Origin: Oscillospiraceae bacterium
GTDB taxonomy: Bacteria > Bacillota > Clostridia > Oscillospirales > Oscillospiraceae
Length of the DNA stretch: 41,860 bases
NCBI GenBank assembly: GCA_017465625.1
Contig: JAFTVV010000025.1
Location: 1 to 41,860, forward strand
Reading direction: 5' to 3'
Made by a program: the position numbers and the translations under genes. The notes under the pieces are model-generated. The model was not told where the DNA came from and searched no databases. It was given only the letters and a program-made list of their open reading frames with translations. How positions within the stretch are numbered: the first letter of the stretch is position 1; every line of letters begins with the position of its first letter. Below are positions 16,764 to 41,860 of this stretch, piece after piece.

Positions 16764-18905
16764 TCAAAGAGCCTTTTGTAATACCGATTCGCAGTACTTA
16801 AGGTTCATGATTTTTTCTTTGAGATCCTGCATGGTATAGAAATAGTGATTACTGGACTCATAGCCGATTCTGGAATCCATACATCTGAGCTTCATCAAAT
16901 CAAACACGGTTTGCAGCTCCTCTTCTATGATGCGAAGCATCCCATCAGTATCTCTGTCATCTCGCAGCCGGTTAAACCGGATATGGTGATAGGCACTTTC
17001 ATACTGGCACAAGACCACTTTTGCCATCAGAATCATTTCATCCAGCTGATCATCCACACCTTGATACCGGGAAAGTTCACACAAGCCTTTTTCCCAAAGT
17101 GTAATCAGCTGACGGTATTCTTCTTCATAAACAGATACAGGATAGATGCCCGCCCATTTTTGAACATCGTCATAGGGATAGCCGACCATACTTGCCTCAT
17201 ATCCGGTAGGCTTCAGGAAGAATGGTGCCATAGGACCGAAATTCTGCGGTCCAAAATAAAGTGTATCCAAATAAAACGGATAATGAGAAAAAGCTTCAGA
17301 CAGCATGAACTGCGCCTCATATACACCCTTTGCAACCGTTTCTCCCAGCCAATCTGTAAGGAAAGCCAACAAGTCGCCTTTGTCTTCCATCAGCCAGGCT
17401 GCAAGCCGCAGATTGGGGCTGGGGCATCCGCCAAGTGTCCAGCTCATTTGCAGATTTTCGATCCCTTGCGCCTTCAAGTTTTCAATGTGTCCGGCAACCT
17501 TCTCCAGTACCGGAATATAAGGAACAACCGCCATTTCCCAGGTGTTATTGATCTGCACCTTGGCAGACAGCGGCATTTTCTGCTTCCGGGCAGCCCGCCA
17601 CAGTTTTTTTGCCTTATCTCCGGGGCCGCAAAGGGACATGGTGTAATCCAAAACGCTGCCCTTTACCCCACCAATTTGAAACTGCATCGCTTCTTCACTG
17701 GTGCATTGCAGGATTTGTCCTTCGGTGAGCAACGGAATTACTTTTTCCGCCCACTCGTCTTTCCATCCCCACGCCCAAACAACGGCTTTTGCATTAGGAT
17801 TGGCATCGTGAGCGCCCTTTGCCATCAAATTATTGACCTCTGCCACAACCTCCCACGGCTTCCTTTTGCGGCATCGCGGGCAAGTCATCTCGCCCTCCAA
17901 ACGGGAGTAGCAATTGGTCAGGTTCTCTGACATGGTGATGGTGAAAAAGCCTGCCAGCTCCGGAACCATCTCAAATAATTTTCTGACACCGTGATAAAGG
18001 TAATCCTGAACCTCTTTTGTGGAAGTACACATTGCGTAATAGTCTCCCTCGGCTTCACCACGCAAATAAGGGTATTTTTCAAAGAACGACTCCGGCATAG
18101 AGCGCGGCTCGTTTAAATACGGATAAATACCGATACCATACTTCTTTGCTTTGGCAACCAGTTTGCGCAATGACTGAATCCGCTTTTCCCAGCCTTTTGA
18201 GAGTGCGGTATCAAAGGGAAATTCCACAAGCTGATACAAAACCAGCTGCATCCAAATACCGTTGATTCCAACCTGTGCATACTGCCGGAGTATCTGCTCC
18301 GGTAAGGGATCCAGGCTCTCATCCAGCAGAACATCGCCGTATAACGCAAAATAAGGGTAAATCATCCGAAGATTATTTCCCTCAGCCTTAGAAACAACCT
18401 TCTCTGCTACAGGCTTTTGGTATTCTTCTACAAATAAAAAGGCATTATCCTTGTAAGAGCCAAAGGCTTCTTTGCACAGCGACGCGATCTTTCTTGTGCG
18501 AGCCAGCTGTTCTTCCGTTAAAGGCGCATAAACCGATTTTTCTACCTGCGGTTTTTCATTTCCCAACTTAACCCACATAAAGTCATCTTCTTTTAAGATG
18601 AAAGCCAATTCATCTGCAGACAGATTGAGAAGGGTCATGATTTGCTCATAGGTACAGATATGCCAATTGTCACGAATCGTGGTTAAATAGCCCCGTTTTT
18701 CCCACATGGGATTTAACGGCTCGTTTTCATCCAGACCCATCTGCCTTACTGCGCAGTATATATTCGCACACGAAGTTTCCAAAGCAGCGGCAATTCTATT
18801 AACCGGAATATATCCCCAGTTTCTCCAAATAACATTCTGCCATACAGTAGGGAAATATTCATAAGATACAGCCTTTTTATTCGACACTTGCGGTAAGGCA
18901 GACAT
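16764..18905 (-). CDS. Predicted glycosidase-like protein, distantly DUF4838/GH20-like
   Basis: A 713-residue protein without signal peptide, so probably cytoplasmic. Residues 33-58 and 86-108 look like two helix-turn-helix-like units (IPVNRIAAALETSCANIY; TYEQIMTLLNLSADELAF). From about 180 the pattern of short strands and conserved acids suggests a TIM barrel: YPYFALYGD, GIYPYLNEPRSM, FFTITMSENLTNC (candidate acid E327), TCPRC (C342, C345) followed by EVVAEVNNL, and VVWAWGW. The CxxC-then-Asn-helix arrangement is also seen in the DUF4838 protein at the other end of the locus. The ATG at 18905 is chosen because GAGGAG lies 8 bases upstream; the GTG at 18911 is too close. No CAZy family can be assigned by eye. 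Last gene of the operon, 64 bases after the ASRT gene. Confidence 0.6.
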   Translation of the reverse strand: MSALPQVSNKKAVSYEYFPTVWQNVIWRNWGYIPVNRIAAALETSCANIYCAVRQMGLDENEPLNPMWEKRGYLTTIRDNWHICTYEQIMTLLNLSADELAFILKEDDFMWVKLGNEKPQVEKSVYAPLTEEQLARTRKIASLCKEAFGSYKDNAFLFVEEYQKPVAEKVVSKAEGNNLRMIYPYFALYGDVLLDESLDPLPEQILRQYAQVGINGIWMQLVLYQLVEFPFDTALSKGWEKRIQSLRKLVAKAKKYGIGIYPYLNEPRSMPESFFEKYPYLRGEAEGDYYAMCTSTKEVQDYLYHGVRKLFEMVPELAGFFTITMSENLTNCYSRLEGEMTCPRCRKRKPWEVVAEVNNLMAKGAHDANPNAKAVVWAWGWKDEWAEKVIPLLTEGQILQCTSEEAMQFQIGGVKGSVLDYTMSLCGPGDKAKKLWRAARKQKMPLSAKVQINNTWEMAVVPYIPVLEKVAGHIENLKAQGIENLQMSWTLGGCPSPNLRLAAWLMEDKGDLLAFLTDWLGETVAKGVYEAQFMLSEAFSHYPFYLDTLYFGPQNFGPMAPFFLKPTGYEASMVGYPYDDVQKWAGIYPVSVYEEEYRQLITLWEKGLCELSRYQGVDDQLDEMILMAKVVLCQYESAYHHIRFNRLRDDRDTDGMLRIIEEELQTVFDLMKLRCMDSRIGYESSNHYFYTMQDLKEKIMNLKYCESVLQKAL

Positions 18906-18969
18906 AAGCACTTCTCCTCTGCAAAAATTCTGCTATTGCCAATATATTGAACACTTTTGCCGTAACAGA

Positions 18970-19332
18970 TCAGAAGCCGTAACCTGCAGGGCTGTAATAA
19001 GCCATATTTGTCTGACGAACATCCAATCTGCCGAAGCAGGCAACCACAGGAACATCCGAGATCACATGGATGGCATACTGACCATAGGGGATCTGGTAGC
19101 CCTCCTTGCCGATGGGCTTATCCAGCCGCAGGCATGTGGTGCGCTCTGCGTTCAGGTCAATGGTAATATTGTCATAGGGAGGCTTGTCCTCAAACAGAAT
19201 CTTGATACGAATCTTCGCATCATCCTTAGAAACATTGGTGATCATCAACGCCTCGTGGCCGGGGAAATCCGGATTGTCGCCCTTGGGAGGCAGGTCGCCG
19301 TCGCAAAATACCCAGTTCTTTTTACCGTACAT
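18970..19332 (-). CDS. Anabaena sensory rhodopsin transducer (ASRT) family protein
   Basis: A 120-residue all-beta protein. The layout MYGKKNWVFCDGDLPPKG, PGHEALMITNVSKDDAKIRI, ILFEDKPPYDN, RTTCLRLDKP, IPYGQYAIHVISDVPVV and RLDVRQTNMAYYS follows ASRT segment by segment, including the closing RLDxRQ motif. ASRT is known from cyanobacteria as the soluble partner of a rhodopsin, but the wider family has been proposed to bind small molecules, possibly carbohydrates. No rhodopsin gene is present; neighbours are glycosidases, an M24 and an M81 protein, so a ligand-binding or subunit role in sugar metabolism is more likely. It starts 13 bases after the M24 stop. There is no signal peptide. Confidence 0.8.
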   Translation of the reverse strand: MYGKKNWVFCDGDLPPKGDNPDFPGHEALMITNVSKDDAKIRIKILFEDKPPYDNITIDLNAERTTCLRLDKPIGKEGYQIPYGQYAIHVISDVPVVACFGRLDVRQTNMAYYSPAGYGF

Positions 19333-19345: not shown

Positions 19346-20524
19346 TCAATGCTTTTCTACATAGTCAAACAGTTCTTTTTCAAATTCGGGGCAGAGGGGC
19401 TCTGCACCGTTTTCGGTGATGACATAGCAGGTTTCCACACGAAGACCGTTTAAAGTGGGATGACCGAAGAAGGAAACGTCCACATTCACGATCATATTCT
19501 TTTCCAGAACATCGTCGCTGTTGGGGCCGAAGAAAGGAGCTTCTGCCTCCATCAGACCCATAGTGTGGGCAAAGGGGCAAACGATGTACTTCAAATAGCC
19601 GCCCTTATCATAGAGCTTTCTGCCTTCGGCGTCGATCTGACGGCCGGAGTTGCCGATCTTCAGCATACTCTTTGTAACCTGCATAACCTCGATCATATCG
19701 GTCAGGCACTTCTTCTGCTCGGGAGTGTACTCACCGCTGACAGGAATGGTGTGACCAAAGGTGCCGGCGTAACCGTTGATACGGGGCGCAATGCCCAGCA
19801 TAACCATTTCGCCGTTTTCCATAACTTTATCGGTTGCGGTAGGAACAACCGCATTGGAACGGACACCGCTGCCTACGATGGTCTGATAAGCAAAGCTGTT
19901 GGCGCCACTGGCACGGCAAACTGCTTCACCTGCGGCAGCAACTTCATATTCCTTAGCACCGGCCTTAACCTTTTCAGCCATTGCCTTATAGGCATCATAG
20001 CAAAGCATCGTTGCCTTTCTTGCCTGCTCTACTTCCCAGTCACTCTTAACATAACGGAACTTCAGGTAATCATCGGTCAGGTCAATGATCTCACAGCCGG
20101 AAAAACCGTTAACCAGATCCTGATGCACGGCATAGGGCATATCGGTCGTGCCGACCAGGCCTACCTTCTTTACGGGGAACTTCTGATTCAGCTCTGCGAA
20201 CAGTTCGGGGAAGCCGATGATCGTTGCCAGAGGATACTCTTCATCCGGTACCATAAATACCTTGAAGCAACGGGTATCGCTGATGGCAGAAGACTGCTTT
20301 GCAAAGGGCTCGCTCTCAGGTCCGCCCAGCAGCATTGTAGTGCCATCTCTGCCCACAAGGACAGCACCCTTTTCAAACTGACCGCACCAGCCGGTCAAGT
20401 ACCAGCCGTTGGCCACATTCAGCTCATCGAAATAGATAACGGCAATATCCGTATCCTTCTCATTCAAGAGCTTAACCACCTTATCGATTCTGTTTTGTGT
20501 TTCCTGTTTGTTAAAATATGCCAT
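19346..20524 (-). CDS. M24-family (pita-bread fold) protein, creatinase-like, atypical metal site
   Basis: A 392-residue cytoplasmic protein with the N-terminal creatinase domain (about 1-160) and the C-terminal M24 domain (about 165-385). In aminopeptidase P or prolidase the metal is held by Asp, Asp, His, Glu, Glu. Here the two Asp positions read G244 and T255 (in GIAPRINGYAGTFGHTIPV), His is kept (H320 in FAHTMG), the first Glu is D349 (NVDVSF) and the second is E364 (RVETCYV). Creatinase, a non-metal member of the fold, also lacks the Asp pair, so hydrolysis of a C-N bond without metal, or a non-catalytic role, are both possible. The gene lies 18 bases after the M81 gene and 13 before the ASRT gene. 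Xaa-Pro peptidase is the name it might receive automatically, but the site argues against that. Confidence 0.8.
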   Translation of the reverse strand: MAYFNKQETQNRIDKVVKLLNEKDTDIAVIYFDELNVANGWYLTGWCGQFEKGAVLVGRDGTTMLLGGPESEPFAKQSSAISDTRCFKVFMVPDEEYPLATIIGFPELFAELNQKFPVKKVGLVGTTDMPYAVHQDLVNGFSGCEIIDLTDDYLKFRYVKSDWEVEQARKATMLCYDAYKAMAEKVKAGAKEYEVAAAGEAVCRASGANSFAYQTIVGSGVRSNAVVPTATDKVMENGEMVMLGIAPRINGYAGTFGHTIPVSGEYTPEQKKCLTDMIEVMQVTKSMLKIGNSGRQIDAEGRKLYDKGGYLKYIVCPFAHTMGLMEAEAPFFGPNSDDVLEKNMIVNVDVSFFGHPTLNGLRVETCYVITENGAEPLCPEFEKELFDYVEKH

Positions 20525-20542: not shown

Positions 20543-21937
20543 TTATTGTGCAATCCACTCAAAGTCTTCAAGCGGATACATTGGACGCTCAATACGCTGC
20601 AGATTCAGGCGGCTCAGTTCCACACAGCTTGTGCCGTCAGACAGCGCAAACAGCTCCCGATCTGCATAGGGCTTCAGTTCTTCAAACAAATACCCTAACT
20701 TCACAACCACAATTTCATAAACCAAAAGATCAACATTTGCTTTGTCGAAATTGCCCTTTTCAATAAACGCGCTGCGTTTTTCTGTAAACACCGCATCTAC
20801 ATTACCGAAAGAAATCGTCAGACTTCTGCCGATAATCTCTTTTGCCCAACCTAAGATTTCTCCGTGAGCCTTGATCGTTCCGTGGCAGCCCAGCTTTTCG
20901 ATATTCACATTTTCACCGTCTTTTTTGTTCCACAGTGTTTCCACGATTTCCAAATCCGTAATACCGGCAACGCAAGTTTTCTTGCTGGGTTTTACATTCA
21001 AAAACAGCCTCAGGATATCTTCGGATGTGCCCTCAGCTCCGGCCGTGGTATTATCGCCGCTGTCTGTGATGAAAATGCGTTTTTCCTCACCGGCTATGGC
21101 CCGGCGAACACATTCCTCAGGCAGTTCTGCCTCGATCCGGAACCTGTATTCCTTTCTGGTATTCCAAAGCTTGTTCGCAAGATCCTTTGCGATCTGCCGG
21201 GCAGTATGGGGATCGGCGGCGCTGACAACTGCAGAAGCACTGGTGTTCGGCGCATCGATCCAACAATGACCAAAGAATAGATTAGCGCCGAAGATCTCTT
21301 CTCTTTCCTCCAAAAGCGCTGTTTCTGCTTCTAAAGAGTGTAGCGGCTCCTGTCGGGTGAGCATGGTATCGCCTTTTACAAGCATGGGGATCTTCTGCAC
21401 ATAGGTATACGGTTTCATACCATTTTGCAAGCAATAGGTCAGCGCAGTTGCCGCACGCACCTGGCTTTCCGGCTGATCCGTGTGAGGGGCTGTTTTATAG
21501 CCGCAAATAATATCCACATACTGCCCCAGCTCATTGGTAATGTTGGCGTGCAGATCCATGGTAAACGCAATCAAACAGTCCCGACTGACAATCTGACGGA
21601 TTTCCTTGACAAGCTGAAGCTCACCACTGCCGATTCCATCCACTTCCATACTGCCGTGAACATAGATATAGATGCCGTCTGCATCCGGATTCGCACGCAC
21701 GGTATCCATAATCTGCTCTTTATAGTATTCATAAATATGCCGCTCTACCGTGGCAGAGGGCAGCGCATTGGCATAAATGGAAGGTACGATTTCAAAACCG
21801 GCATCTTCAAATATGTCTTTTACAACCAGTTTTTTAAAGATATCCCATCCTGCAAAGTACTCAAAGTCACTTTTCTGCGGATGAAGATTTGCCTTGCTGT
21901 TGGATTCGCACTGAAACGATGCAACAATCACCTTCAT
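20543..21937 (-). CDS. M81-family (MlrC-like) metallopeptidase
   Basis: A 464-residue protein with the DUF1485/MlrC layout: GIYIYVHGSMEVDGIGSGE, then FTMDLHANITNELG (D128, H130) and GYKTAPHTDQPESQ (H152) as likely zinc ligands, and TDSGDNTTAGAEGTSEDILR where family members have the DNPGGG-type loop. MlrC of sphingomonads opens linear microcystin products, but most family members have unknown substrates, probably amide or peptide-like bonds. There is no signal peptide, so it is cytoplasmic. The start follows AAGGAGG at 8 bases. A possible extended -10 promoter lies just upstream, so this gene may open a sub-operon of M81, M24, ASRT and the unassigned glycosidase. Confidence 0.85.
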   Translation of the reverse strand: MKVIVASFQCESNSKANLHPQKSDFEYFAGWDIFKKLVVKDIFEDAGFEIVPSIYANALPSATVERHIYEYYKEQIMDTVRANPDADGIYIYVHGSMEVDGIGSGELQLVKEIRQIVSRDCLIAFTMDLHANITNELGQYVDIICGYKTAPHTDQPESQVRAATALTYCLQNGMKPYTYVQKIPMLVKGDTMLTRQEPLHSLEAETALLEEREEIFGANLFFGHCWIDAPNTSASAVVSAADPHTARQIAKDLANKLWNTRKEYRFRIEAELPEECVRRAIAGEEKRIFITDSGDNTTAGAEGTSEDILRLFLNVKPSKKTCVAGITDLEIVETLWNKKDGENVNIEKLGCHGTIKAHGEILGWAKEIIGRSLTISFGNVDAVFTEKRSAFIEKGNFDKANVDLLVYEIVVVKLGYLFEELKPYADRELFALSDGTSCVELSRLNLQRIERPMYPLEDFEWIAQ

Positions 21938-21979
21938 TATATACGCCTCCTTTTATCATCATCTTAGCAAATCGTCATT

Positions 21980-21988
21980 TTTATAACA
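21980..21988 (-). promoter_or_regulatory. Possible extended -10 promoter for the M81-M24-ASRT sub-operon
   Basis: Minus strand TGTTATAAA (21988-21980) fits TGnTATAAT with one mismatch and leaves a leader of about 36 bases. There is no good -35. It lies in the widest gap (165 bases) of the enzyme part of the locus. Confidence 0.35.
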
Positions 21989-22102
21989 AGGTACAAAACA
22001 GCACAGAAATGGTAAAAAATAAAAGCCTGTAAATATTTTAGGAATTTTTCCCATTTTCTTGATTTGTGCTTTTTTTCGCAAGCTTTAGGCTGTGTATATG
22101 AT

Positions 22103-24799
22103 CTAAAACCCAAATTCCACGAAGCAATAGTTTTCATTCCAGTCCTGCTCCGTTGCACCGTTCCAAACGCAGGGCTCTTTAAAAAAATGACGGGGGCAAA
22201 CGCCGGGGCTCTCTCCCTGGGGCAAATGGTGCGGTCCTAACAGATTTCTCAAATTATTGATGAGTGTGTAGCGAACTGTCGTCCGGCCTTTTTGTCCAAA
22301 GGGTGCAAGTGGCAGCCGGTCATTCGTTAGCAATGTCTGCTCCTTGCCGGCAATTTCCACCTTGATCACATTGACGCCCTTGCGTTTAAAGCAAAGCACA
22401 GGATTCTCCCCCTGAATATCCAAGCTGCCTTCCAGGCATAGCTTTCCGCAGAAGAAAGGATATCCCTGCTGCTCCAGATTTTCAGCAGACAGTGTCTTTT
22501 CCGGTTTTTGCAGTGTGAATTCACCCTGATACCGAACGGCACTGCGTTCCAGAGGTGTCCAAATACCGGACGTTCCTACACTGAAATCACCCAGCAGATA
22601 GATCGCCTCGATCTCCATATCGTATGCCAGCTTATTTAGTTCGCTTTCAAATATTTGCGCTTTTCTTCTGTTTTCATAAAATTCTGCAGTCTGGCTAAAT
22701 TCGCAATCCATACAAATCCGGTTTTCACCAACAGTCATATACCCGCTGATGTCCAGTTTTTGAATGGTATAATCCAAAAATTGACCGGAAATTTTTTGCT
22801 CTACAGGAACACCGTTAATCGTAATCCGGAACTTTTCCGGTGTTTCGCAGGCAAGATACATTTTATCCGGTACATAATCCGCCTGAACAACATATTCCTG
22901 ATGAATTTGCACAGAGCGTTCCAGGCTGTTGGCACGCTCTGCAATATTCAGCACATAGCCGCTTTTCTCCTGCAAAACGCCGTCAAAATAGTAGTCGCAG
23001 TGATCCAAGGTCAGGCAATTCTCTGCAGAGCCCACGATCCGCAGATCGCCCTCGGGGCGCAAAAAGCTTGCAGGCAGCTCCTCCCCCGTTACCGGGGCAA
23101 TATGATCTTCCACCAGCAGCAAGCTTCCCCAGGGTTCAAATTCGTGAGTGCCGGAAAAAGGCTGCAGTTCGCCGGTGTAAATGTCGATTTTCTTTCCCTT
23201 AACCGCAAAATTTGCCTGTTTCCTTTCGGGTGAGGTGTTTACGAAATAGTGAACGACACGATCTTCCAAATACCGCTTTGTATAGGTGATTTGAGGGTTA
23301 TCCACAATCCCATTGGCGGATAATTCCTCTGCCGTTACCATACGGCCACCAGCCTGAGTGAACGCTTGCAACAGTTCCTTGGTTGACTCCAGCAACACTT
23401 GGCAACCGGGATCGATCACATACTGATAGCTGCAATTACCAATCACCAGTCTTCCGTTTTCTATTTTTCCGTAGCGCTGCATCAGCGTTTCATCGCCAAA
23501 GTGGAAGCTGATATGCTTGGTCTCCAAAAGGTTCATAATTTCATACAGTCGATCGTTCAGTTCCCATATTTCCTTTTTGGAACTGCCGTCAAAAAGCGAC
23601 CAAACTGTAGTTTGGGGATGGAGCAGCAGTACCTCCACCGGATTTTCTCCCTCTTGCAGAAGCATGCCCACTCTGGACATCGCGTCTGTAAAACGGCGGT
23701 ACTCCTCCCACCAGGGCTGCTGAACATACATCGCCGGGGGATAATCCCGCTTCCGAATACCCCGGATAGAATAACCCTGCAAGTGCTGGCACAGCATATT
23801 AACACCGCGAACCATTTGCCATTCGTAAATGCCTTTCAGCTCTGCAAAGCTTACATTATGTCCGCACATCGCAAAGGTCTCGGAAAGCACAGCTTTCTTT
23901 CCCAACTGCTGTGCTGCAGAGGTTAACTGAAGTATGGTTGTGGTGTTCCAAATATCTCTGCCCAACCAGTCCATGCCGGGAATATGAAAATATTCATAGC
24001 TGGGCATACAGGCGCCGTGGGTCGTGATTTGAGTCTCCAAATGATCCTCACTGGTCAGATGTCCTGTCAGTTTCAAGCCCCGCTGATCACACCACAGATA
24101 GATCTGCTTCATATAAGACTCTGTGAACAGCTCCGTTACCATCTTCCAGAACTTGACTCTGGTATTCTGATAGTCCCCTACCGGCAGGAACAACTGTTCC
24201 AGACATTCCAGGATATTTTCGCCATACCGCTCGTTATAGGCTTCTTCAAAGACAAAACTCCAGGGGATTCCGTTCCGGGAAATTTGGGGCTCATCGGTGA
24301 AAAAACCTTCAATGCGATTGCCGTATTTCTCATAATAGGGTGCATAGGACACCTCAATAAACTTAGCAATCACTTTTTTATCCAAAGTATCCACATAAAA
24401 TGGATTGACATCGTAATAAAACCAGTGCTTGCCGCATTGGCAGATTGCGGTTTCCGGATGGCTGGGGGCGTCCTCCATTCGCAGATACTTCTGCTGGTAC
24501 GCTACTCCCAGACCGTTGACTACGCCGTCTCCAAAGCCACTGGGCCAGCCGTTTTCGTCGTATGCCCAGGCACGCATTCCCGTTTCTTCAGCTTTTTCCA
24601 CGGCAGCCGTCACATTATCAAACCACTCCTGCCCCATATAGGCAGTTTGCAGGCCGCCACGGGCGTGCATAAAGAATCCGCCCAAGCCAGCCTCATCCAT
24701 CTGCCCGATTTGCGCCCGGGTCTGTTCTGTTTTCAGCTTTTCATTCCAACTCCAAAAAGGAATCGGGCGATATTGTACGGGAACATTTTTGAAATCCAT
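22103..24799 (-). CDS. GH106-like glycoside hydrolase (alpha-L-rhamnosidase-related)
   Basis: An 898-residue protein without signal peptide. The N-terminal part carries PIPFWSWNEKLKTEQTRAQI, GLGGFFMHARGGLQT and AWAYDENGWPSGFGDG, typical of the GH106-related group, and later FFTDEPQIS and AVLSETFAMCGHN, which hold the likely catalytic acids. The C-terminal third is beta-rich and probably carries accessory jelly-roll domains. GH106 enzymes of known function remove alpha-L-rhamnose, but many related sequences are uncharacterised, so specificity is open. The ATG at 24799 follows AGGAAG; the longer frame adds nine unlikely residues. It lies 39 bases after the beta-mannosidase. Confidence 0.8.
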   Translation of the reverse strand: MDFKNVPVQYRPIPFWSWNEKLKTEQTRAQIGQMDEAGLGGFFMHARGGLQTAYMGQEWFDNVTAAVEKAEETGMRAWAYDENGWPSGFGDGVVNGLGVAYQQKYLRMEDAPSHPETAICQCGKHWFYYDVNPFYVDTLDKKVIAKFIEVSYAPYYEKYGNRIEGFFTDEPQISRNGIPWSFVFEEAYNERYGENILECLEQLFLPVGDYQNTRVKFWKMVTELFTESYMKQIYLWCDQRGLKLTGHLTSEDHLETQITTHGACMPSYEYFHIPGMDWLGRDIWNTTTILQLTSAAQQLGKKAVLSETFAMCGHNVSFAELKGIYEWQMVRGVNMLCQHLQGYSIRGIRKRDYPPAMYVQQPWWEEYRRFTDAMSRVGMLLQEGENPVEVLLLHPQTTVWSLFDGSSKKEIWELNDRLYEIMNLLETKHISFHFGDETLMQRYGKIENGRLVIGNCSYQYVIDPGCQVLLESTKELLQAFTQAGGRMVTAEELSANGIVDNPQITYTKRYLEDRVVHYFVNTSPERKQANFAVKGKKIDIYTGELQPFSGTHEFEPWGSLLLVEDHIAPVTGEELPASFLRPEGDLRIVGSAENCLTLDHCDYYFDGVLQEKSGYVLNIAERANSLERSVQIHQEYVVQADYVPDKMYLACETPEKFRITINGVPVEQKISGQFLDYTIQKLDISGYMTVGENRICMDCEFSQTAEFYENRRKAQIFESELNKLAYDMEIEAIYLLGDFSVGTSGIWTPLERSAVRYQGEFTLQKPEKTLSAENLEQQGYPFFCGKLCLEGSLDIQGENPVLCFKRKGVNVIKVEIAGKEQTLLTNDRLPLAPFGQKGRTTVRYTLINNLRNLLGPHHLPQGESPGVCPRHFFKEPCVWNGATEQDWNENYCFVEFGF

Positions 24800-24838
24800 A
24801 CCGGTCTTCCTTTCCAAAATCTGCAAAAGCCTGTCGGT

Positions 24839-30094: not shown

Positions 30095-30109
30095 TGGATA
30101 TCTCCTCAA

Positions 30110-31009: not shown

Positions 31010-31019
31010 ATTCAGCACC

Positions 31020-31937
31020 TCAATCCTCACTGGGGCCGTGTTTCTCCAGCAGATGCTTTACAAGCATCGTCACCGGCACTACGACCACGGTCATCAGAAC
31101 GCCCATTGCGGAGAGTATGGGGTATTCCGCAACGGATTTTGCTCCCTGCGTTTTAACATACAGGTAATAGCCATAGGTTTGCACGCCATCCGGCGCGTTT
31201 TCACCGAAGAAAGAGAACAGATTGAAATGGTTTGTAAAGATGGTTGCCACACCTGCAACCATAAAGGTCATTAAAGTGGGGAACACCATCGGCAGGGTCA
31301 CATGCCAAAACTCCTGGAATGCCGTTGCTCCGTCAATCTGTGCCGCACCGGCCAGCTCGTCGGAGATGCCGCTCATGGAGTTGGAATACATCAAGACCGA
31401 GGTACCAAAGCCGATCAGCACATTATAAAACACTAAGAAGGCGTAGCAGGTATCGGAATTGACCATCAGGCCTTCCATCTTGATACCGAAAAACTGGGAG
31501 AAAACCCCAGGAACAGCTCTTTCCACAAAGAACTGGTAAATCGTTGCCAAAACAATGGCAGAGATGATGGAAGGGATAAACAGAATCACGCGAAAAAAGC
31601 CGTGAAGCGGCATTTTTTTATAAATGTAGTAAGAGAAAAACAGTGCCAGAGGAATGCCGATGCCGTGGGTCAGCAGATACGACAGGAGAGATACGCTGAG
31701 AATACTCAGCATCTGCGGATTCTCGGTCATCATTTGGAACGCATTGCGGATGTTGTCCATCGTCCACGTGGTGGTGTGATTGGCGACATCAATTTTTTGG
31801 AAGGCCATCATAATAGATCTGGCATTCACACCAATATAAAACACCAAAAACTGAACAACCGGGAATGCCATTAAAAGAATGTAAAATCCCAAATCCCTGC
31901 GTTTCTGATGGGTGCGTCGGTTTGGTATTCTATTCAT
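31020..31937 (-). CDS. CUT1 sugar ABC transporter permease (MalF/UgpA-like)
   Basis: A 305-residue protein with six predicted membrane helices; the EAA-type loop reads ELAGAAQIDGATAFQEFWHV. The first helix (LGFYILLMAFPVVQFLVFYIG) follows a basic N-terminus. It pairs with the MalG-like permease to form the channel for an imported oligosaccharide. The start at 31937 follows GGAGG at 9 bases; upstream in-frame codons overlap a possible operator. No solute-binding protein precedes it; the preceding gene is the giant lipoprotein instead. Confidence 0.92.
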   Translation of the reverse strand: MNRIPNRRTHQKRRDLGFYILLMAFPVVQFLVFYIGVNARSIMMAFQKIDVANHTTTWTMDNIRNAFQMMTENPQMLSILSVSLLSYLLTHGIGIPLALFFSYYIYKKMPLHGFFRVILFIPSIISAIVLATIYQFFVERAVPGVFSQFFGIKMEGLMVNSDTCYAFLVFYNVLIGFGTSVLMYSNSMSGISDELAGAAQIDGATAFQEFWHVTLPMVFPTLMTFMVAGVATIFTNHFNLFSFFGENAPDGVQTYGYYLYVKTQGAKSVAEYPILSAMGVLMTVVVVPVTMLVKHLLEKHGPSED

Positions 31938-31963
31938 AAATATGTGCCTCCTGCAATTCTTTA

Positions 31964-31979
31964 TGTTATCCGCAAACAA
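31964..31979. promoter_or_regulatory. LacI-family-operator-like site upstream of the permeases
   Basis: On the minus strand TTGTTTGCGGATAACA closely resembles the lac operator half-region TTGTGAGCGGATAACA, differing at two of 16 positions. It lies 27 bases before the permease start, within a 239-base gap. TTGACA on minus (32049-32044) is a possible -35 upstream, but no good -10 follows. Operator function is inference; no LacI-type gene is visible. Confidence 0.35.
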
Positions 31980-35100: not shown

Positions 35101-37408
35101 CGCCTAAGGTTGCGGTATCCAGTGTTAATATCCCGTCGGCATAGGTGACGGAGGAGAAGCTCTTGCCGTCCACAGAAGCAGACTGGATCAGGAAGCCCTC
35201 CAGCTCCTCAGCAAAGCAGGACAGGTCTATACGAAAGGTCTCTGCGGTCCGTTTGCTCACCAGTACCTGCTCATCAAGCATCATCTGCTTTGCATAATCC
35301 ACCTTAATGCTGAGCTTCACGGCATTACGATGGTTGAATACGGAGCGTACAGTAATATCCAGCACAGAATCATCGGGAATTTCGTCAGGAATAATGATTA
35401 AATTTTCTTCAACTTTTACGCCGAGTTTTCTGGTCGCTGCGGACAGCAACACTTCATCTAAAAAGCCCAGATTTTCCATGGCAACGGTTGTACCGGACAA
35501 TGTCTCGGCAGCCGCTGTGACTGTGGGCATATAGCTTGCGTGGATGTTGCGGCCTCTGGGATAGGCAACAGCTCCAATGGTCGCCCAGAACGTATTGCCC
35601 CAGCCGCCCATACTTCTGCCGCTTTGAATGAAATCCCTGTACGTGGGATACGCGCCGTATCGATCTGCACCGGACTGGCTATCCACCAGCTGGTGATAGA
35701 CATGATCTGCACCGATGATATACAGGCCGCTGAATTTTCCATACTCACCCAAATTGGTCAGCGCATAGCCGGTTTCGCCTACATTTACCATCGGAATATT
35801 GTGCTCTATCAATACCTGCTTTGTTTCCAGAGAACCGTACATATAAGAGAACAAAACAGTGGTGCTGCTGTGACCGCCACCTGTCTTCAGGTCGGTCAAA
35901 GAGACATTGATGTAAACATTTTCCATCAGACCGCCGCCTATTTGCGCAATCATCGCACCGGTTCCGGAATGGTTGGCGTTGATAAAGGCAATATCCTTTA
36001 TTGTAGCCTCATTCACCCCCGGTGCGCCGAATGTTTCGCCAAACAAGCCACGACCGAAACGATTTTCGCTGGAGGTAGTAAAATTATAGATTGCGTGTCC
36101 GCGGCCGTCAAAAGTGCCTAAGAACGGCTCAGTGACATTGGAGGAATAGGTGCCGCCGCATTGGATGTCATTGCCCAAAATGTAATAGCCATTGGGGTAG
36201 CTTGCCGCATACCGGGGGAAACTGTTCAGCTCCGATTCGGAATTGATGACAAAGGTCGCCATCGTACCCTCTGTGACAAACTCCGCCTTTTCCGCAATCA
36301 CAGACAGCTCCACAGGCTTGCCAATGGAAGGCAGCAGCTCATCCTTCAGGTAGAGCGCTCCGTCCTTGATCTCCTTCAGAACGCTTTCTCCGTTGAACAG
36401 AACATCGGTCACCTCACCGGCACCGGCGAAACGAGAAGCGCTAAGTACATATCCGGTAGCCTGCTCCACATCCACATTCTTTTTCTCTACCATGCTTCGG
36501 TAAATCACCGCATTGATGGCAATATCCGCATGGTCATACTGTCCTACAATACGGGCTGTACCGGCACTGACACCGACGATTCTGCCATCTTCACTGACGG
36601 TGGCAATATCCTGATCCAAGCTGATCCAGGTGATCGTGGGATCTTCTACCTTCACGCCCTTATTGTACACCGTGACAACGGGGATGATCTCGGTAATATC
36701 CTTGTCGGTTTTGAACAGGCCCAGCTCTGCTTTGTATGCAAACGCGGACTTCTCCAAATTGGCAATATCAAAGGTAATGTCCAAATTGGTCACCTTGATG
36801 TTTATGCTCTGTGCCAGGACCATACCACGGTAGGTGGTGCTGACCGTATAAGCAGTTTTGCCATAGGAAAGAGCCGTGATTTCCGCACCCCGCTCATTGG
36901 GGGTCAGGGAAACTCTTTCCTCCTGAGCATCGTCACACAGTTCCCAGTTGAAGGTAAGATGCTCTGTGACCATCTCGCCGTTATACCGTACTCCCACTTC
37001 TACCGTATAGGACTCATTCAGGCCCAAAGCGATATCCGGTGTGTTCACCACCAAAACAGGGGCTACATAAGAGTTGACGACCTGAACGCTGCAGGAGGCT
37101 GAAGCTTTTCCTACCGTGACTGTAACAACGGTTGTACCCTCCTGCACTGCTGTGACTGTGCCGTTATCCACCGTGGCAACAGAAGGGTCTTCCACCGTCC
37201 AAACAGGTGTCTCCTGAGAGCCGGTCACCTCTGCGGTTAATACAAAGGTTTCATAAACATCTAAATGTATGCTGGACTTGCTTAAGGAGATCGTGACATT
37301 GGCGTCACCCTGCTGTTTACAAGCAGCCAAAGAAATTGCCATTGCCGCGATCAGCATTACACACAGTGCTACAGTGCGCCAATTTCTCTTGGAAATCCGG
37401 TTCTTCAT
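32177..37408 (-). CDS. Giant surface lipoprotein with Big_2-like and GLUG-like repeat modules
   Basis: A 1743-residue lipoprotein: signal peptide with lipobox LAAC (Cys 30). Residues about 36-112, 120-208 and 240-310 are Big_2-like Ig domains (WTVEDPSVATVDNGTVTAV; ITWISLDQDIATVSEDGRIV). Four repeat modules follow, each with an Ig-like strand region, a YPNGYYILGNDI-type line and a GTFDGRGHAIYNF-type line (near 435, 848, 1198 and 1545), then NISFVGA, GTLENVY, NGWGYA, FYVVGAD and FWTVVDGFPVP lines. FDGxGxxI motifs are typical of GLUG/M26-type beta-solenoid repeats. Modules 3 and 4 are nearly identical. There is no LPxTG motif and no catalytic domain I recognise; glycan binding at the cell surface is the likely job. 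The ATG at 37408 follows AAAGGAGG; the longer frame to 37453 would put residues before the signal peptide. Confidence 0.85.
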   Translation of the reverse strand: MKNRISKRNWRTVALCVMLIAAMAISLAACKQQGDANVTISLSKSSIHLDVYETFVLTAEVTGSQETPVWTVEDPSVATVDNGTVTAVQEGTTVVTVTVGKASASCSVQVVNSYVAPVLVVNTPDIALGLNESYTVEVGVRYNGEMVTEHLTFNWELCDDAQEERVSLTPNERGAEITALSYGKTAYTVSTTYRGMVLAQSINIKVTNLDITFDIANLEKSAFAYKAELGLFKTDKDITEIIPVVTVYNKGVKVEDPTITWISLDQDIATVSEDGRIVGVSAGTARIVGQYDHADIAINAVIYRSMVEKKNVDVEQATGYVLSASRFAGAGEVTDVLFNGESVLKEIKDGALYLKDELLPSIGKPVELSVIAEKAEFVTEGTMATFVINSESELNSFPRYAASYPNGYYILGNDIQCGGTYSSNVTEPFLGTFDGRGHAIYNFTTSSENRFGRGLFGETFGAPGVNEATIKDIAFINANHSGTGAMIAQIGGGLMENVYINVSLTDLKTGGGHSSTTVLFSYMYGSLETKQVLIEHNIPMVNVGETGYALTNLGEYGKFSGLYIIGADHVYHQLVDSQSGADRYGAYPTYRDFIQSGRSMGGWGNTFWATIGAVAYPRGRNIHASYMPTVTAAAETLSGTTVAMENLGFLDEVLLSAATRKLGVKVEENLIIIPDEIPDDSVLDITVRSVFNHRNAVKLSIKVDYAKQMMLDEQVLVSKRTAETFRIDLSCFAEELEGFLIQSASVDGKSFSSVTYADGILTLDTATLGDMVEDGQIFANFAKDNDLALVKINIFASDMAICSAEDLQRFPEIMQKYPSGYYILGDDIDYTGYTYTNNNDVSFTGIFDGRGYTIYNLRTKTGASDALHGFFGMNFGLEGAPQHSATLRNISFVGATVWGKGAFLAMNGSGTLENVFVYCTIEDLVADVNDPNPWYNSTSILFNKGKWYLTADKVIVEYKEPLTNNNGWGYAVGFPDNVGEFDKFYVVGADRYYGLLGTTSAQAGSVGCYANRADFVAAKNNLTAWDGNGFWTVVDGFPIPNRLVDINLDKPFGEPVELAGMTYVDTAAGEATFTVDFGEQKALVEGAKLTDASVEGKKFTTGSYADGILTLDCGTVSEMAGEKTVILTFEKGSKKITVHAKIAVCTMLISDADELSMFPTVMKKHPNGYYALDNHIDYAGYTYSNNATVPFTGTFDGRGYTIFNFCSKTSATDATGGFFGQLFATNGNGVELPGTLKNISFVGATVKGYGGFLGMMGQGTLENVYIQFDIENMQAGAADGTQNHWYHSTSVLFNIGYWNIPIKNVVLEYKEPLNNPKGWGYAFGQIYGGYNVNNFLIVGADHFYQQGMGAHYSTMQADCYLSRDDLKAKAPDLSTFENDFWTVVDGYPVPKKLVDYVPPAKEETVDLSAVTFIDSTGDTFTVDFGEEKSLVAGMSLQSAKIGGKVFTIADYNDGIVTLDMATVQDLVGENTASLIFKSTTNTLIVRAKTVMCTKVIRTAEDLQAFPDAMKKTPDGYFVLGNDIDFAGYTYSNNATIPFTGTFDGCGYTIFNFCSKTSATDATGGFFGELFATNGNGLELPGTLKNISFVDATVKGYGGFLGMKGQGTLENVYIQFDIENMQAGAADGTQNHWYHSTSVLFNIGYWNIPIRNVVLEYKEPLNNPKGWGYAFGQIYGSQNVNNFLVVGADNFYQQGMGAHYSTMQADCYLSRDDLKAKAPDLSTFENDFWTIVDGYPVPKKLADQ
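32197..33867 (-). repeat. Two tandem near-identical copies, period 1041 bases, inside the lipoprotein gene
   Basis: Bases about 32197-32826 and 33238-33867 match almost base for base at an offset of 1041 (347 codons), for example around TCCAGAAGTCGTTTTCAAAG at 32224 and 33265. Outside this span the copies diverge. The in-frame period and low divergence indicate a recent duplication or gene conversion. Confidence 0.85.
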
Positions 37409-37474
37409 TTCCAGTATTCCTCCTTTAATTTCAGAAAGTTCCTTTTTGAGCATTTTGCTGCGCTCTTCTTGTTT

Positions 37475-37545: not shown

Positions 37546-37571
37546 AGCCCCGGCGGCGAACCGCCGGGGCT
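37546..37571 (-). terminator. GC-rich hairpin after the DUF4838 gene
   Basis: AGCCCCGGCGG (37546-37556) pairs perfectly with CCGCCGGGGCT (37561-37571) around CGAA. It follows the stop at 37600 on the minus strand, but a C-run, not a T-run, comes after it, so it may attenuate or protect mRNA ends rather than fully terminate. Confidence 0.5.
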
Positions 37572-37599: not shown

Positions 37600-39840
37600 T
37601 TAGCTCCACAGATCTGCGACATTGTCAAATTCGGTAGCCTTTACGATACCCAGCGCGGCGCAGTCTTCCTTGAAGGAGGACTTCATCGCTGCCAGCTCGC
37701 CGGCGGAATATGTGTTGCCGTAGAACTCAATGAGCATATAGCGAATAAAGATGCCTTCTGCCCGGATGTGCTTGAGTGCCTTGGCATCGCCTGCGGCATC
37801 CGTTTCAGCCTTCTCTACCAGGCTCAGCCAGCTGACCAGCATATCCTTGGGCCAGTATGCTGCACTGGCCAATGCGTCACTGTTGCCGGAGTTGATCTGA
37901 CCAGTGTACTGACCGGACAATCCGTTCATCCAAGCCTGCAGCTCCTCAAACAGCTGCTGCATCTCGTTGCCGCCCTTGCCGTAGTAATTTGCAAAGAAGC
38001 TATTGACTGCTCTCTGATAGCCGCCATCGTTCATTGCATTTACATTCTGACCGGCAACACTGTTCAGGTAAACCTTCAGTGCGGTAAAGCCTGTAGCATA
38101 CGCCTGGTTATGCTGACCCTGGATCATCACGATATCTGCATCACACTCGTAAGCAAAACGCAGGTTTTCCACGCTGGTGGTCCAGGAATCGTGGGGGATC
38201 ATATAGTGCCTGAAGTTGGTCTCATACAGCCAGTAGTACAGGTGATCGCTGAGGGTTGCCCAGTTGCGCATATTGGTTGCTACAGCAGCGTTCTGGGACT
38301 CATAGAAGCTATGGGTATAGGATGCGCCAATGGGTGCATAGATCACGCCCAGATTCTCATGGAAGTGAATCTCGCTCAGATTCTTAGAAGGTGCGTCCTC
38401 GTATGCGTTGTAGGCCATCAAATAGAGGGTAAACTCACGCTTTGCGGTGCCGGCGGCATCTGCCTGTGCCTGCAGTCTTTCCTGAATCTCTGCACTCAGC
38501 AAATTCATAAACTCAACAACCGCGCCGTTGTCGGAGCCGTACTTTTCACGGTCAGCATCACATGCGTTACAGTCACAGCAGTCTTGGTTATCCATAATGG
38601 AGAACTGACCCATGGTGATCGCTGCATTTTCTGCCTTATTCAGCTCATTGAGGATCTGTGTGGCGGCTTCATCTACCATTGCCGCAAGCTCATCTGCGTC
38701 GCCCTGTGCATTGTAGCAAAGCTGCGAGGGAGTCTGGAACAATCCACGCTTGGAGTACCACTTGCTGTGGCCCTGGCCACCTAACCATGTGGAGATGCCG
38801 TAAGTGTCGTAAGGCAGGTAGAGCATAGAAGTATGGTTATCCGCGCCGTCCTTCTGCAGGAACTGGTGAGAGAAGTGGGTGTAGCCCAGGAGGTAACGGC
38901 CGGAGAGCTCGCCGGGTGTCTCGTAGTAGCCGCGCCAGTTGCCCATTATATGGTTGGGGATATCGGGCTTTTCGATGATCACCATATCCGGCATGGTTTC
39001 GCCGGTCTTGGTAAATACAACGGTGTCTACGCCGTAGACTTCCATACCTACCACATGCTTCAGGAATGCAAGCACTGCATTCTGCGCGCCAGTTTCCTTA
39101 CCGGTCATAATAAATACGTTGTCATTGCTGGTGACAATGTAGTAGCCGGCAGTGCCCAAATCGGTCTCGGGCATGCTAAGCCCTGCGGCTGCGAAAGCGT
39201 CGGTGTCGTTGATCACGATGTGCTTGCCGCTGCCGGAGTAGGCTCCGGTAGACAGCGTCACGCCGGTGGCGTTCTTCACAATACCGATCAGGTAGGTGGC
39301 GGCAAGCTGGCTCTGGGCATCGGAAGCTGCCACAACCTTATAATCAGAGCTTCCACCGCTTACAAACTTGCGGGTTGCGGAACGCACGGTCACATCGTGG
39401 ACTGTACCGGCGGCATAGCCGTCGTTATAGTCGTTAAATACGACCTGAGATGCGGGAACAGGGGTCTTGGTAGCAGGATCTTCAGCCCAGAAGCCGGAAG
39501 TATACCAGACACTGAAGTCTGTGCCGGCGTTGCCGAAGGCAGTACGGTCAGCATAGCAAGCCGTATTGGTAGCCTGCTCGGAGTAGGGGCCGATCTGACC
39601 ATAGTACTGGTCTGCGCCTACAACATAGAAGTTATCAAATTCGCCAACATTGTCGGGGAAGCCTACAGCATAGCCCCAACCGTTATTGTCGGTCAAAGGT
39701 TCTGCGTACTCCACGATGACCTTATCGGCTGTCAGATACCATTTGCCCTTGTTGAACAGAACGCTTGTGCTGTTGTACCAGGGGTTGGCATCGTTTACAT
39801 CGGCAACCAGATCCTTAACGGTACAGTTCATGTACACATT
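37600..39840 (-). CDS. Giant repeat protein, C-terminal part with DUF4838-like domain (after frameshift)
   Basis: About 745 residues in frame downstream of the frameshift. The first 130 complete a repeat module (VYMNCTVKDLVADVNDANPW, NGWGYAVGFPDNVGEFDNFY). Next comes an alpha/beta domain like the N-terminal domain of GH20/GH67 enzymes (HIVINDTDAF; GYYIVTSNDNVFIMTG; AVLAFLKHVVGMEVYG), then the DUF4838 region: MGQFSIMDNQDCCDCNACDA with the Cys cluster, AVVEFMNLLSAEIQERL and FTLYLMAYNAYEDAP. DUF4838 is regarded as a glycosidase-like domain of unknown specificity. An in-frame ATG exists at 39831 and the open frame extends to 39888, but bases upstream of the frameshift read in the wrong register. 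Independent translation is doubtful, as no Shine-Dalgarno sequence is evident. Confidence 0.75.
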   Translation of the reverse strand, partial: NVYMNCTVKDLVADVNDANPWYNSTSVLFNKGKWYLTADKVIVEYAEPLTDNNGWGYAVGFPDNVGEFDNFYVVGADQYYGQIGPYSEQATNTACYADRTAFGNAGTDFSVWYTSGFWAEDPATKTPVPASQVVFNDYNDGYAAGTVHDVTVRSATRKFVSGGSSDYKVVAASDAQSQLAATYLIGIVKNATGVTLSTGAYSGSGKHIVINDTDAFAAAGLSMPETDLGTAGYYIVTSNDNVFIMTGKETGAQNAVLAFLKHVVGMEVYGVDTVVFTKTGETMPDMVIIEKPDIPNHIMGNWRGYYETPGELSGRYLLGYTHFSHQFLQKDGADNHTSMLYLPYDTYGISTWLGGQGHSKWYSKRGLFQTPSQLCYNAQGDADELAAMVDEAATQILNELNKAENAAITMGQFSIMDNQDCCDCNACDADREKYGSDNGAVVEFMNLLSAEIQERLQAQADAAGTAKREFTLYLMAYNAYEDAPSKNLSEIHFHENLGVIYAPIGASYTHSFYESQNAAVATNMRNWATLSDHLYYWLYETNFRHYMIPHDSWTTSVENLRFAYECDADIVMIQGQHNQAYATGFTALKVYLNSVAGQNVNAMNDGGYQRAVNSFFANYYGKGGNEMQQLFEELQAWMNGLSGQYTGQINSGNSDALASAAYWPKDMLVSWLSLVEKAETDAAGDAKALKHIRAEGIFIRYMLIEFYGNTYSAGELAAMKSSFKEDCAALGIVKATEFDNVADLWS

Positions 39841-41860
39841 TCCAGTGTGCCGCTGCCGTTCATTGCCAGGAAAGCGCCCTTGCCCCAAACAACAGCATCC
39901 ACGAAGGAGATGTTCTTCAGGGTTGCGGAGTGCTGCGGCACACCCTCTTCACCAAAGTTCTTGCCGAAGAAGCCGTGGAGGGTATCGTTGGCACTGGCCT
40001 TGGCGCACAGATTATAAATGGTGTAGCCCTGGCCGTCGAAGATACCGGTGAAGTTGCCTTCGAAGCTATTGCTATAGGAAACCCCATCCATATCAATGTC
40101 GTTCGTCAGCACATAGTAGCCGGAGGGATTTGCTGCCATCAGGGTGGGGAAGTTCTGAAGCTCAGCGGCAGTGGAGATCTCCACCACATTCCGCTTTGTA
40201 ACAGTAGCCTTCACATACAGCACCTTGGTATTGGAAGCAAAGATCAAGGTAACGGTCTTGCTGTCACCGATGTTCATTTCGCCCAAGGTAGCAGCATCCA
40301 AAGTAACCTTTGCGGCAGTGTAGTTGCAGGAGATAGAGGCAAAGCTCCGGGCATCGACTCTGGCATCGTTCAGGGTTGCGCCGGTGCGGTTTGCTACGGG
40401 GATCTCACTGAAGTCGATCACGAAGGAGTCACCGGAGCCAACATAGCAGTCGGCTGTCAGCTCAATTTTCTCCTCGGGCATCGGAGCGTTTTCATAAATC
40501 GTGCCGACCAGGCGTGTGGGTACGGGGAAGCCGTCCACAACGGTCCAGAAGCCGTTGCCGTCCCAGGCAGATACATCTGCATCAAAGGCAGCACGGTCAG
40601 CGAAAGCCTCAAATGTGCCGGTGATCTGGACGTTATTTGCCACAACATTGTCTGCGCCAATGACATACAGACCGTTATAGGTACCGGCCGCATTGCCAAG
40701 GACGTAAACAGGGTTTGCAGCACCAACAGCAGATACGGTGTGCTCTACAACAACATTGTTGATCTTTGCTGTGACCATTGTGTAAGTACCAAACAGGTTG
40801 TTGTATTCGCCAGCGTGATTGTAGGGATTCTGATTGACACGGATGTAAACATTCTCCATCGTGCCTTGCATATTGTGGGCAATGATCGGGCCCATCTTTT
40901 CGTTGTAAACATTTACAAAGGAGACATTCTTGATTACGCCTTCAGAGGTAAGTGTATCGCCAACAAGGCCCATGAATGCGCTCTCCCAAAGCTTGGTTGC
41001 AAAGTCATAAATGACATAGCCCTGTCCATCGAAGGTACCGGCAAAATGGGTTGCATAGGTGTTGCAATCGTAAGTGCCGGAGAACTGGATATCGTTACCC
41101 AGGACAAATACGCCGCTGGGATTTGCGTTCATTGCCGCAGGCATAGCCTTCAGCTCATCCGCATCGTTGATGATCACATCACAGGGGACAACCGTAACGT
41201 TCACAGAAAGAACTTTGCTCTCGTTCTCGAAGACCAGCACCAGCTGGGCATCGCCGGTCAGGGTTGCCAGTGCATCGCCGGTCAGGGTCAGCTTGCCGCT
41301 ACTGTAAGCGGCAGTGATGGCCTCACCGTTGAGGGTTGCGGACTTCAGTGTGGTATTGGCAACCACAGACTGCTGTGCGCCAAAGTCATACTCGGCAACG
41401 GTTGCGCCCTTTTCTGCGTAGACAGGATTCTTCAGGTCAGCAGTTGCTTTGTAAACAGGGGATTTAGCATAATCGGTACCCACCAGATTGTTGGGTACGG
41501 GGAAACCGTCCACGATGGTCCAGAAGCTGCTGTCAAAGGCAGTCAGGCCCAGTGCAGCCTGCTTAAACGCCACGCGGTCTGCATAGCAGCCGGCTTCCAG
41601 CGTTGCGTAGTTGGGCTCGACGCCCTGTCCGTAGTAGTTGTCTGCGCCAACAACATAGAAATTGCTTTCGCTGTTACTGCCGTAGATCTGGCCCAGTGCG
41701 TAACCCCAGCCGTTATTGTCCGTCAGGGCTTCATTATATTCCACGATCACGTTCTTCAGTTCCACATCCCAGTAGGCAACGTTAAACAGAACGCTGGTGC
41801 TGTTGTACCAGGGGTTGGGATCTTCCACGTGGGCAAACAGATCCTGAATATTCACACGGA
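39828..41860 (-). CDS. Giant repeat protein, N-terminal/middle part, 5' end outside window, frameshifted
   Basis: The frame is open at the right edge; about 675 residues are visible before it ends shortly after GSGTLE with two wrong residues and a stop. It holds two complete repeat modules and part of a third of the same type as the giant lipoprotein: FAGTFDGQGYVIYDF, FTGIFDGQGYTIYNL, FWTVVDGFPVPTRLVG, with Ig-like strands between them. No catalytic motif is seen in this part. A single missing A at 39839-39841 separates it from the DUF4838-like part; joined, the protein would exceed 1400 residues. A signal peptide cannot be judged because the 5' end is missing. Confidence 0.75.
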   Translation of the reverse strand, partial: RVNIQDLFAHVEDPNPWYNSTSVLFNVAYWDVELKNVIVEYNEALTDNNGWGYALGQIYGSNSESNFYVVGADNYYGQGVEPNYATLEAGCYADRVAFKQAALGLTAFDSSFWTIVDGFPVPNNLVGTDYAKSPVYKATADLKNPVYAEKGATVAEYDFGAQQSVVANTTLKSATLNGEAITAAYSSGKLTLTGDALATLTGDAQLVLVFENESKVLSVNVTVVPCDVIINDADELKAMPAAMNANPSGVFVLGNDIQFSGTYDCNTYATHFAGTFDGQGYVIYDFATKLWESAFMGLVGDTLTSEGVIKNVSFVNVYNEKMGPIIAHNMQGTMENVYIRVNQNPYNHAGEYNNLFGTYTMVTAKINNVVVEHTVSAVGAANPVYVLGNAAGTYNGLYVIGADNVVANNVQITGTFEAFADRAAFDADVSAWDGNGFWTVVDGFPVPTRLVGTIYENAPMPEEKIELTADCYVGSGDSFVIDFSEIPVANRTGATLNDARVDARSFASISCNYTAAKVTLDAATLGEMNIGDSKTVTLIFASNTKVLYVKATVTKRNVVEISTAAELQNFPTLMAANPSGYYVLTNDIDMDGVSYSNSFEGNFTGIFDGQGYTIYNLCAKASANDTLHGFFGKNFGEEGVPQHSATLKNISFVDAVVWGKGAFLAMNGSGTLEMCT
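39839..39841 (-). other. One-base deletion (frameshift) in the giant repeat protein
   Basis: The paralogous modules read ACACATTTTCCAGTGT on the plus strand (for example near 34663-34678), coding GTLENV. Here the run is three T instead of four (39839-39841), turning GAA AAT GTG into GAA ATG TGT and meeting a stop two codons later. Homology continues without loss in the next frame. Confidence 0.9.

Follow-up and report, generated by a model that had tools for sequence, protein, structure and literature searches.

Sugar sensing inside cells by ASRT proteins was predicted from operon context by De Souza, Iyer and Aravind (2009; PMC2739507), who found the family next to a sugar isomerase, aldolase and kinase, a monosaccharide ABC transporter and another type of FAD oxidoreductase, as well as an inactive zincin-like metallopeptidase beside a secreted actinobacterial family; the main text of that study names no M81 or M24 neighbour. 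The locus described here is like those operons in that its ASRT protein is stand-alone, intracellular, encoded in a sugar operon and a predicted small-molecule sensor. It differs from them in its M81 and M24 partners, and in the predicted ligand cysteine, which is replaced by Met in 62 of 65 aligned proteins. We know of no established ligand or enzyme partner for ASRT and, going by titles and the starts of abstracts, we found no open-access paper on the M81-M24-ASRT trio, nor anything useful for it in the literature on creatininase and inosose.

Two further families provide a point of comparison. Creatinase is a metal-free hydrolase on the pita-bread fold, the fold of the M24 family. The M24 protein of our locus is like creatinase in its fold, as judged by sequence (the PDB creatinases 1chm and 7yto are among its weaker hits), in its missing metal aspartates, and in the creatininase-family neighbours of related M24+ASRT operons; it is unlike creatinase in its sugar-operon setting, and its best PDB matches are prolidases. 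The M81 protein, in turn, keeps the four zinc-ligand positions of MlrC, but scores far below the NCBIfam MlrC cut-off (61.5 versus 999) and stands in sugar operons. As for the locus as a whole, it resembles Gram-positive polysaccharide utilisation loci (PULs) in gathering permeases, intracellular glycosidases, surface proteins and AraC regulators in one cluster, whereas neither the M81-M24-ASRT module nor the FAD oxidoreductase is, to our knowledge, a usual part of such loci.

Layout of a composite locus

The window, that is the whole stretch of DNA analysed (41,860 nucleotides from an Oscillospiraceae bacterium), lies on contig C27 of a 1.70-Mb metagenome bin with a completeness of 80%. An earlier note, made from the sequence of the window, had described a co-directional run of genes, and this is confirmed: the genes are real, co-directional and closely packed, with 13 ORFs on the minus strand from 41858 down to 16764. 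The intergenic gaps from the first permease to orf715 range from -11 to 58 bp, with the exception of 165 bp before M81, whilst the giant Big_2 protein gene is flanked by gaps of 146 and 197 bp. Nearly all of the note's gene labels were confirmed by Pfam and solved-structure searches. From the contig end downwards, the features are:

39828..41858, minus strand: ORF with GLUG/M26-type repeats, truncated at the contig end and belonging to a secreted repeat/DUF4838 protein (Peptidase_M26_N 28.8 bits, cut-off 27.7)
37600..39888, minus strand: DUF4838-containing ORF, remainder of the frameshift-split gene (PF16126, E 1.5e-26)
32177..37453, minus strand: 1758-aa surface lipoprotein with Big_2 and GLUG-like repeats (PF02368, E 3.1e-11; lipobox-like LAAC by eye)
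31020..31979, minus strand: CUT1-type ABC permease, MalF-like (PF00528; NCBIfam MalF under cut-off)
30110..31030, minus strand: CUT1-type ABC permease, MalG/GlcU-like (PF00528; NCBIfam under cut-off)
28541..30109, minus strand: calcineurin-like phosphoesterase (Metallophos) lipoprotein (PF00149, E 1.7e-12; lipobox-like LAGC by eye)
27296..28528, minus strand: FAD-dependent oxidoreductase, FAD_oxidored (PF12831, E 1.9e-101)
24839..27253, minus strand: GH2 beta-mannosidase-type enzyme, without a signal peptide by eye (Pfam GH2 and mannosidase-type Ig domains; PDB matches)
22103..24826, minus strand: GH106-like protein (PF17132 35.5 bits, cut-off 29)
20543..21937, minus strand: M81 (MlrC-like) protein, module core (PF07364, E 6.4e-72)
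19346..20524, minus strand: M24 (creatinase/prolidase fold) protein lacking both metal aspartates, module core (PF00557, E 3.5e-32)
18970..19332, minus strand: ASRT protein, predicted to bind a small molecule, module core (PF07100, E 2.6e-26)
16764..18911, minus strand: orf715, a 715-aa predicted cytoplasmic glycosidase, distant GH20b/DUF4838 relative (hhalign probability 90%)

The same locus is found in a near relative, the MAG RGIG8730 from water deer colon (genome G295, locus L080), in the same gene order and with a DNA identity of about 91-96% in the main blocks. It is collinear throughout, except that the relative is without the GH106-like gene between GH2 and M81 (window 21964-24844), a 76% homologue of which lies on another G295 contig. 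Judging by the reading frames, the first two ORFs of the locus are one frameshift-split gene: a single 1946-aa open frame spans the region of both in G295, and the ORF at 37600-39888 is 95% identical to part of it. At 39828-39888, the site of the frameshift, sequencing error and real decay would give the same picture; the gene is intact in G295. Its start, read on the neighbouring contig, looks by eye like an ordinary signal peptide, whereas lipobox-like N-termini were seen by eye in the Big_2 giant and the phosphoesterase.

Cut by the contig end of the window, the locus continues on G000:C11, which mirrors the G295 contig upstream of the split gene. Encoded on that stretch are a DUF4838 protein of 651 aa, a surface protein of 980 aa and a 572-aa lipoprotein that is solute-binding-like by eye but has no match to Pfam at 1e-3. 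A GH2 protein, a pair of AraC-type regulators (a PocR domain is present in one of them) and a GHL6 glycosidase in divergent orientation are also encoded there. With permeases and glycosidases in the window and the two AraC-type regulators upstream, the assignment of this region to glycan utilisation is borne out, as is the unusual enzyme set that the note had remarked upon. No transporter ATPase or Pfam-confirmed binding protein was seen.

In the window, rsmE adjoins the locus (15136-16764), whilst in G295 it lies on a different contig, C20, with another neighbour. The locus thus seems to sit at different chromosomal places in two close relatives, a reading that holds if the bins were assembled rightly. 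The flank of rsmE appears to be a variable site. Misbinning of the contig was considered and rejected, since a phosphoglycerate kinase encoded in the left half of the window is 86-87% identical to those of two genus mates, compared with 61-67% in most matches (73-75% in partial ones) to the other nine genomes compared; the contig therefore belongs to its bin. At the thresholds used, and among 295 genomes of the order, neither ASRT, nor M81, nor M24 of the window type was found in the other members of the genus (two) or of the family.

Neither RNA families at gathering scores nor tRNAs were found in the window, and promoter and terminator scans of it gave scores near those of shuffles. Between the gene for the DUF4838 protein and that for the Big_2 giant, a strong hairpin (37546-37571) suggests that the genes upstream of the giant may form a separate transcript.

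The glycosidases vary in how closely they can be placed. By its domain set and nearest characterised relatives, the GH2 protein can be classed as beta-mannosidase-type, its best solved relatives being beta-mannosidases (6byc/6bye, E 1.8e-136; 2je8, E about 1e-135). The PF17132 match of the GH106-like protein spans profile positions 315-542 of 743 only, and the solved relatives of the FAD oxidoreductase match a short N-terminal stretch only. For orf715, Pfam and NCBIfam searches returned no match, solved-structure searches no convincing one, and comparison with the window's DUF4838 protein no likeness; it resembles the family alignment A4 of GH20b/DUF4838-type glycosidases (hhalign probability 90%). 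The locus is a composite. A constant M81-M24-ASRT part is joined to a variable part concerned with uptake and glycosidic cleavage, which comprises the surface repeat proteins, DUF4838 proteins, CUT1 permeases, GH2, GH106-like protein and FAD oxidoreductase.

Recurrence of the M81, M24 and ASRT genes

Using a query alignment (A1) of six M24 proteins, that of the window plus five encoded beside ASRT genes in the order, we searched GTDB-representative contigs and retrieved 107 relatives, the best 80 of which correspond to 80 loci, many of them cut by contig ends. Near M24, ASRT was present in 66 and M81 in 61 of these 80 loci (best 80 of 107), on the opposite strand in none, and the three genes were contiguous in 37. 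Of the 62 loci flanked by 3 kb or more of sequence on each side, 43 had the trio on a single strand within 3 kb. Seven of the 80 had neither M81 nor ASRT in the DNA retrieved around M24, including all five Lentisphaerota. Four loci match a query row almost exactly; with query sources removed and the set dereplicated at 90% M24 identity, 44 loci were left, of which 34 have ASRT and 29 have M81, and all three genes stand together in 20 of 32.

The earlier note had proposed a search for FAD_oxidored together with these three genes. Co-occurrence held for M81, M24 and ASRT but not for FAD_oxidored, which is near M24 in only 3 of the 80 loci (best 80 of 107), within the DNA retrieved, and was rejected as part of the module core. 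The corresponding counts for GH2 (3/80) and the phosphoesterase (1/80) mean that what the trio acts on is not defined by mannosidase plus phosphoesterase, and a mannose glycopeptide or phosphoglycan, which the note had put forward as one candidate substrate, is not supported as a theme common to the trio loci.

Of the 295 genomes sampled from the order, 10 carry M24 of the window type (two with contig-end fragments only), 16 carry M81 and 54 carry ASRT. M81 is present in 8 of the 10 M24-positive genomes versus 8 of the 285 others (p 4e-10), and ASRT in 9 versus 45 (p 1e-6), the ASRT figure being partly built in because A1 was chosen from ASRT neighbours. As six of the ten M24-positive genomes had given query rows, the test was rerun without them, giving 3/4 versus 8/285 for M81 (p 2e-4) and 3/4 versus 45/285 for ASRT (p 0.015), an ASRT signal that is weak once the query genomes are removed. 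In the eight genomes with a full-length M24, ASRT lies within about 1.5 kb in seven and M81 in six; in the four non-query genomes, ASRT is near M24 in one and M81 in two. Starting instead from ASRT, 18 of 38 loci from the order, chosen for spread and so non-random, have an M24 gene nearby. In the M24 tree, two Kiritimatiellota rows fall inside Bacillota, but several deep branches are weak or long and we base no conclusion about transfer between phyla on this placement. The M81-M24-ASRT set is conserved across Clostridia and present in several other phyla.

Active-site residues and operon settings

The pita-bread domain of the M24 protein is confirmed (PF00557, E 3.5e-32). When it is aligned with Pyrococcus furiosus prolidase (1pv9), the metal aspartates fall on Gly244 and Thr255, whose spacing of 11 equals that of the metal aspartates D246 and D257 given for E. 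coli PepQ in an excerpt of PMC4213023. Neither aspartate is kept in any of 109 aligned rows (85 of the window type, the window included, and 24 others, duplicates included); a positive control, the Paenibacillus homologue annotated as Xaa-Pro peptidase, keeps both. His320 and Glu364 are kept wherever a row has the residue, whilst the other Glu position is mostly Asp (Asp349). With both aspartates gone in 109 of 109 rows, the M24 protein is probably no metallopeptidase and its annotation as such is probably wrong; the peptidase-like role suggested earlier for it is thus doubtful.

In M81, E11, D128, H130 and H152 are present in 61 of 61 sequences, and the spacing of 128, 130 and 152 is that of D167, H169 and H191, which are among the MlrC zinc ligands in an excerpt of PMC9982164; E11 was placed by motif only. 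The ASRT signature SHEshChhN is represented by His26 and Asn33 in 65 of 65 proteins, the ligand-contact Cys position being occupied by Met (62), Ile (2) or Thr (1).

The settings of the trio are those of sugar operons. Faecalicatena and other Clostridia have the order LacI, CUT2 ATPase, permease and binding protein, M81, GH20b/DUF4838 glycosidase, RhaM-family gene, M24 and ASRT; Christensenella has the same compact operon without the RhaM-family gene; and many ruminant-gut Clostridia have a divergent AraC gene followed by M81, M24 and ASRT, with varying glycosidases before or after. The types of glycosidase in the best 80 of 107 loci are orf715 (13), GHL6 (9), GH20b (7) and GH2 (3), with one member each of the GHL6 and GH20b types tested by Pfam. 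A flank census of 62 loci, with 8 near-duplicate loci set aside, drew on co-directional ORFs of 140 to 1000 aa lying within 5.5 kb; starting from the nearest, it covered 115 of the 283 that qualified. Peripla_BP_4 (10), BPD_transp_2 (8) and Peripla_BP_1 (8) led the count, and the 25 of 111 families listed include no binding protein of the Opp/Dpp type. We take M81-M24-ASRT to be a portable metabolic module that follows different glycosidases and monosaccharide-type transporters. Since the glycosidases beside it differ from locus to locus, it should act on some small product that several glycans share.

In related M24+ASRT pairs with a distant M24, the place of M81 is taken by a gene of the creatininase or phosphotriesterase family. 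The former was identified by Pfam in L060 and by N-terminal motif, by eye, in L055, L059, L062, L065 and L066; the latter by Pfam in L063 and L064 and by eye in L061 and L071. The creatininase-family neighbours of these sister versions would fit a C-N or ring-opening chemistry. A polysaccharide-deacetylase-family gene accompanies the pair in L057 (distant M24) and L126 (window-type M24). In the alphaproteobacterial locus L158, window-type M24 and ASRT stand beside proline-racemase and D-amino-acid-oxidase-type genes, which point towards amino-acid-like substrates.

Several other contexts were met along the way. Plasmid records yielded distant homologues only of M24 and ASRT, and the metal-keeping Paenibacillus M24 from such a record stands beside proline-racemase genes. 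Two spirochaete bins and one Clostridia bin (L153, L155 and L136) have at least three M24 paralogues on one locus with ASRT; CUT2-type transporter genes are also present in L136 and L153, and M81 was not found in any of the three. ASRT recurs in a different context in Sinorhizobium meliloti (L169) and Natrononativus (L172), where a gene of FAD-binding or arabinono-lactone-oxidase type lies between two ASRT genes. Another ASRT type adjoins rhamnose isomerase- and rhamnulokinase-like genes, by eye, in L048.

Possible roles of the module

How might these two parts work together? Starting from a conserved set of adjacent genes, the metal ligands missing from M24 in the alignments, the kept M81 site and the sugar-operon setting, we give about an even chance to a two-layer glycan-utilisation cluster in which M81-M24-ASRT serves as a small-product metabolic module. 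In the first, lineage-specific layer, secreted repeat/DUF4838 proteins would bind or trim the glycan at the surface, the CUT1 transporter would import its fragments, and the cytoplasmic beta-mannosidase, GH106-like and GH20/DUF4838-like enzymes would cut them. The second layer would handle, in a so far undescribed step, one small sugar-derived product that many different glycosidases release. Here, M81 would be a zinc hydrolase, whilst M24, with its pita-bread fold, would work without metal in the manner of creatinase and would probably cleave a C-N bond, or one like it, beside the sugar; creatinase, a metal-free member of the fold, is the nearest model for an M24 without its metal site. Perhaps ASRT binds the small molecule, either as sensor or as partner. 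We infer that the three proteins belong to a single pathway, and the order of its steps, its chemistry, its ligand and its inducibility are all to be read as part of that proposal.

Tentatively, we could go further and speculate on an undescribed catabolic pathway with M81-M24-ASRT at its core. Two peptidase folds, of which one has lost its metal site, would degrade a sugar derivative of nitrogen-bearing or lactone type that many glycans share; ASRT would be the dedicated ligand-binding partner, and creatininase- or phosphotriesterase-family enzymes would stand in for M81 in the sister versions. This more specific picture we regard as possible, though on balance not probable.

A mannoside locus (from C11 to GH2) and an M81-M24-ASRT-orf715 cassette could also be two unrelated units lying side by side, with no metabolic link between them. 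Indeed, nearly all other loci have the cassette but no mannoside part, the GH106-like gene lies between both parts in the window and not in L080, and the 165-bp gap falls just before M81. However, L080 keeps both parts together in the same order, with 81 bp between GH2 and M81, and they stay joined there even though its locus sits on a contig other than that of rsmE; we consider such a chance association unlikely.

To a similar degree, we find it improbable that the module serves L-rhamnose or another 6-deoxy or L-sugar, with ASRT and RhaM-family genes marking rhamnose-type operons and GH106-like enzymes releasing the rhamnose. A RhaM-family (L-rhamnose-mutarotase) gene is present in 17 of the 80 loci (best 80 of 107), always on the same strand, which suggests a free reducing sugar; GH106-like genes lie near M24/ASRT in the window, L142 and L078, and the sugar isomerase, aldolase and kinase found with ASRT by De Souza et al. 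(PMC2739507) would agree with such a role. On the other hand, a RhaM-family gene was found neither in the other 63 of the 80 loci nor in the window genome (80% complete), and L-rhamnose isomerase occurs in 12 of 14 genomes examined, those of the window and L080 included, which leaves no obvious need; rhamnose need not, therefore, be the sugar of the module. Nor are M81 and M24 known to have a role in rhamnose use, which counts against this reading.

Weaker still, and in our view quite doubtful, is the idea that M81 and M24 are genuine peptidases trimming the peptide or amide part of an imported glycopeptide, such as a mannose-bearing N- or O-glycopeptide, an idea akin to that of the earlier note. 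In its favour are the peptidase names of both families, the zinc-ligand positions retained in M81, the beta-mannosidase of the locus and one relative (L158) beside proline-racemase-type genes. Against it, the metal aspartates of M24 are absent in 109 of 109 rows, the adjoining transporters are mostly monosaccharide-type, the 25 of 111 families listed include no binding protein of peptide type, and GH2 homologues are in only 3 of the 80 loci (best 80 of 107).

Under the two-layer reading, with M81-M24-ASRT as a module for a small product, the trio gives ASRT concrete candidate enzyme partners and a testable pathway. Perhaps the lesson extends to annotation as well: in gut bacteria, a gene labelled as an Xaa-Pro or M81 peptidase may in fact encode an enzyme of a sugar pathway.
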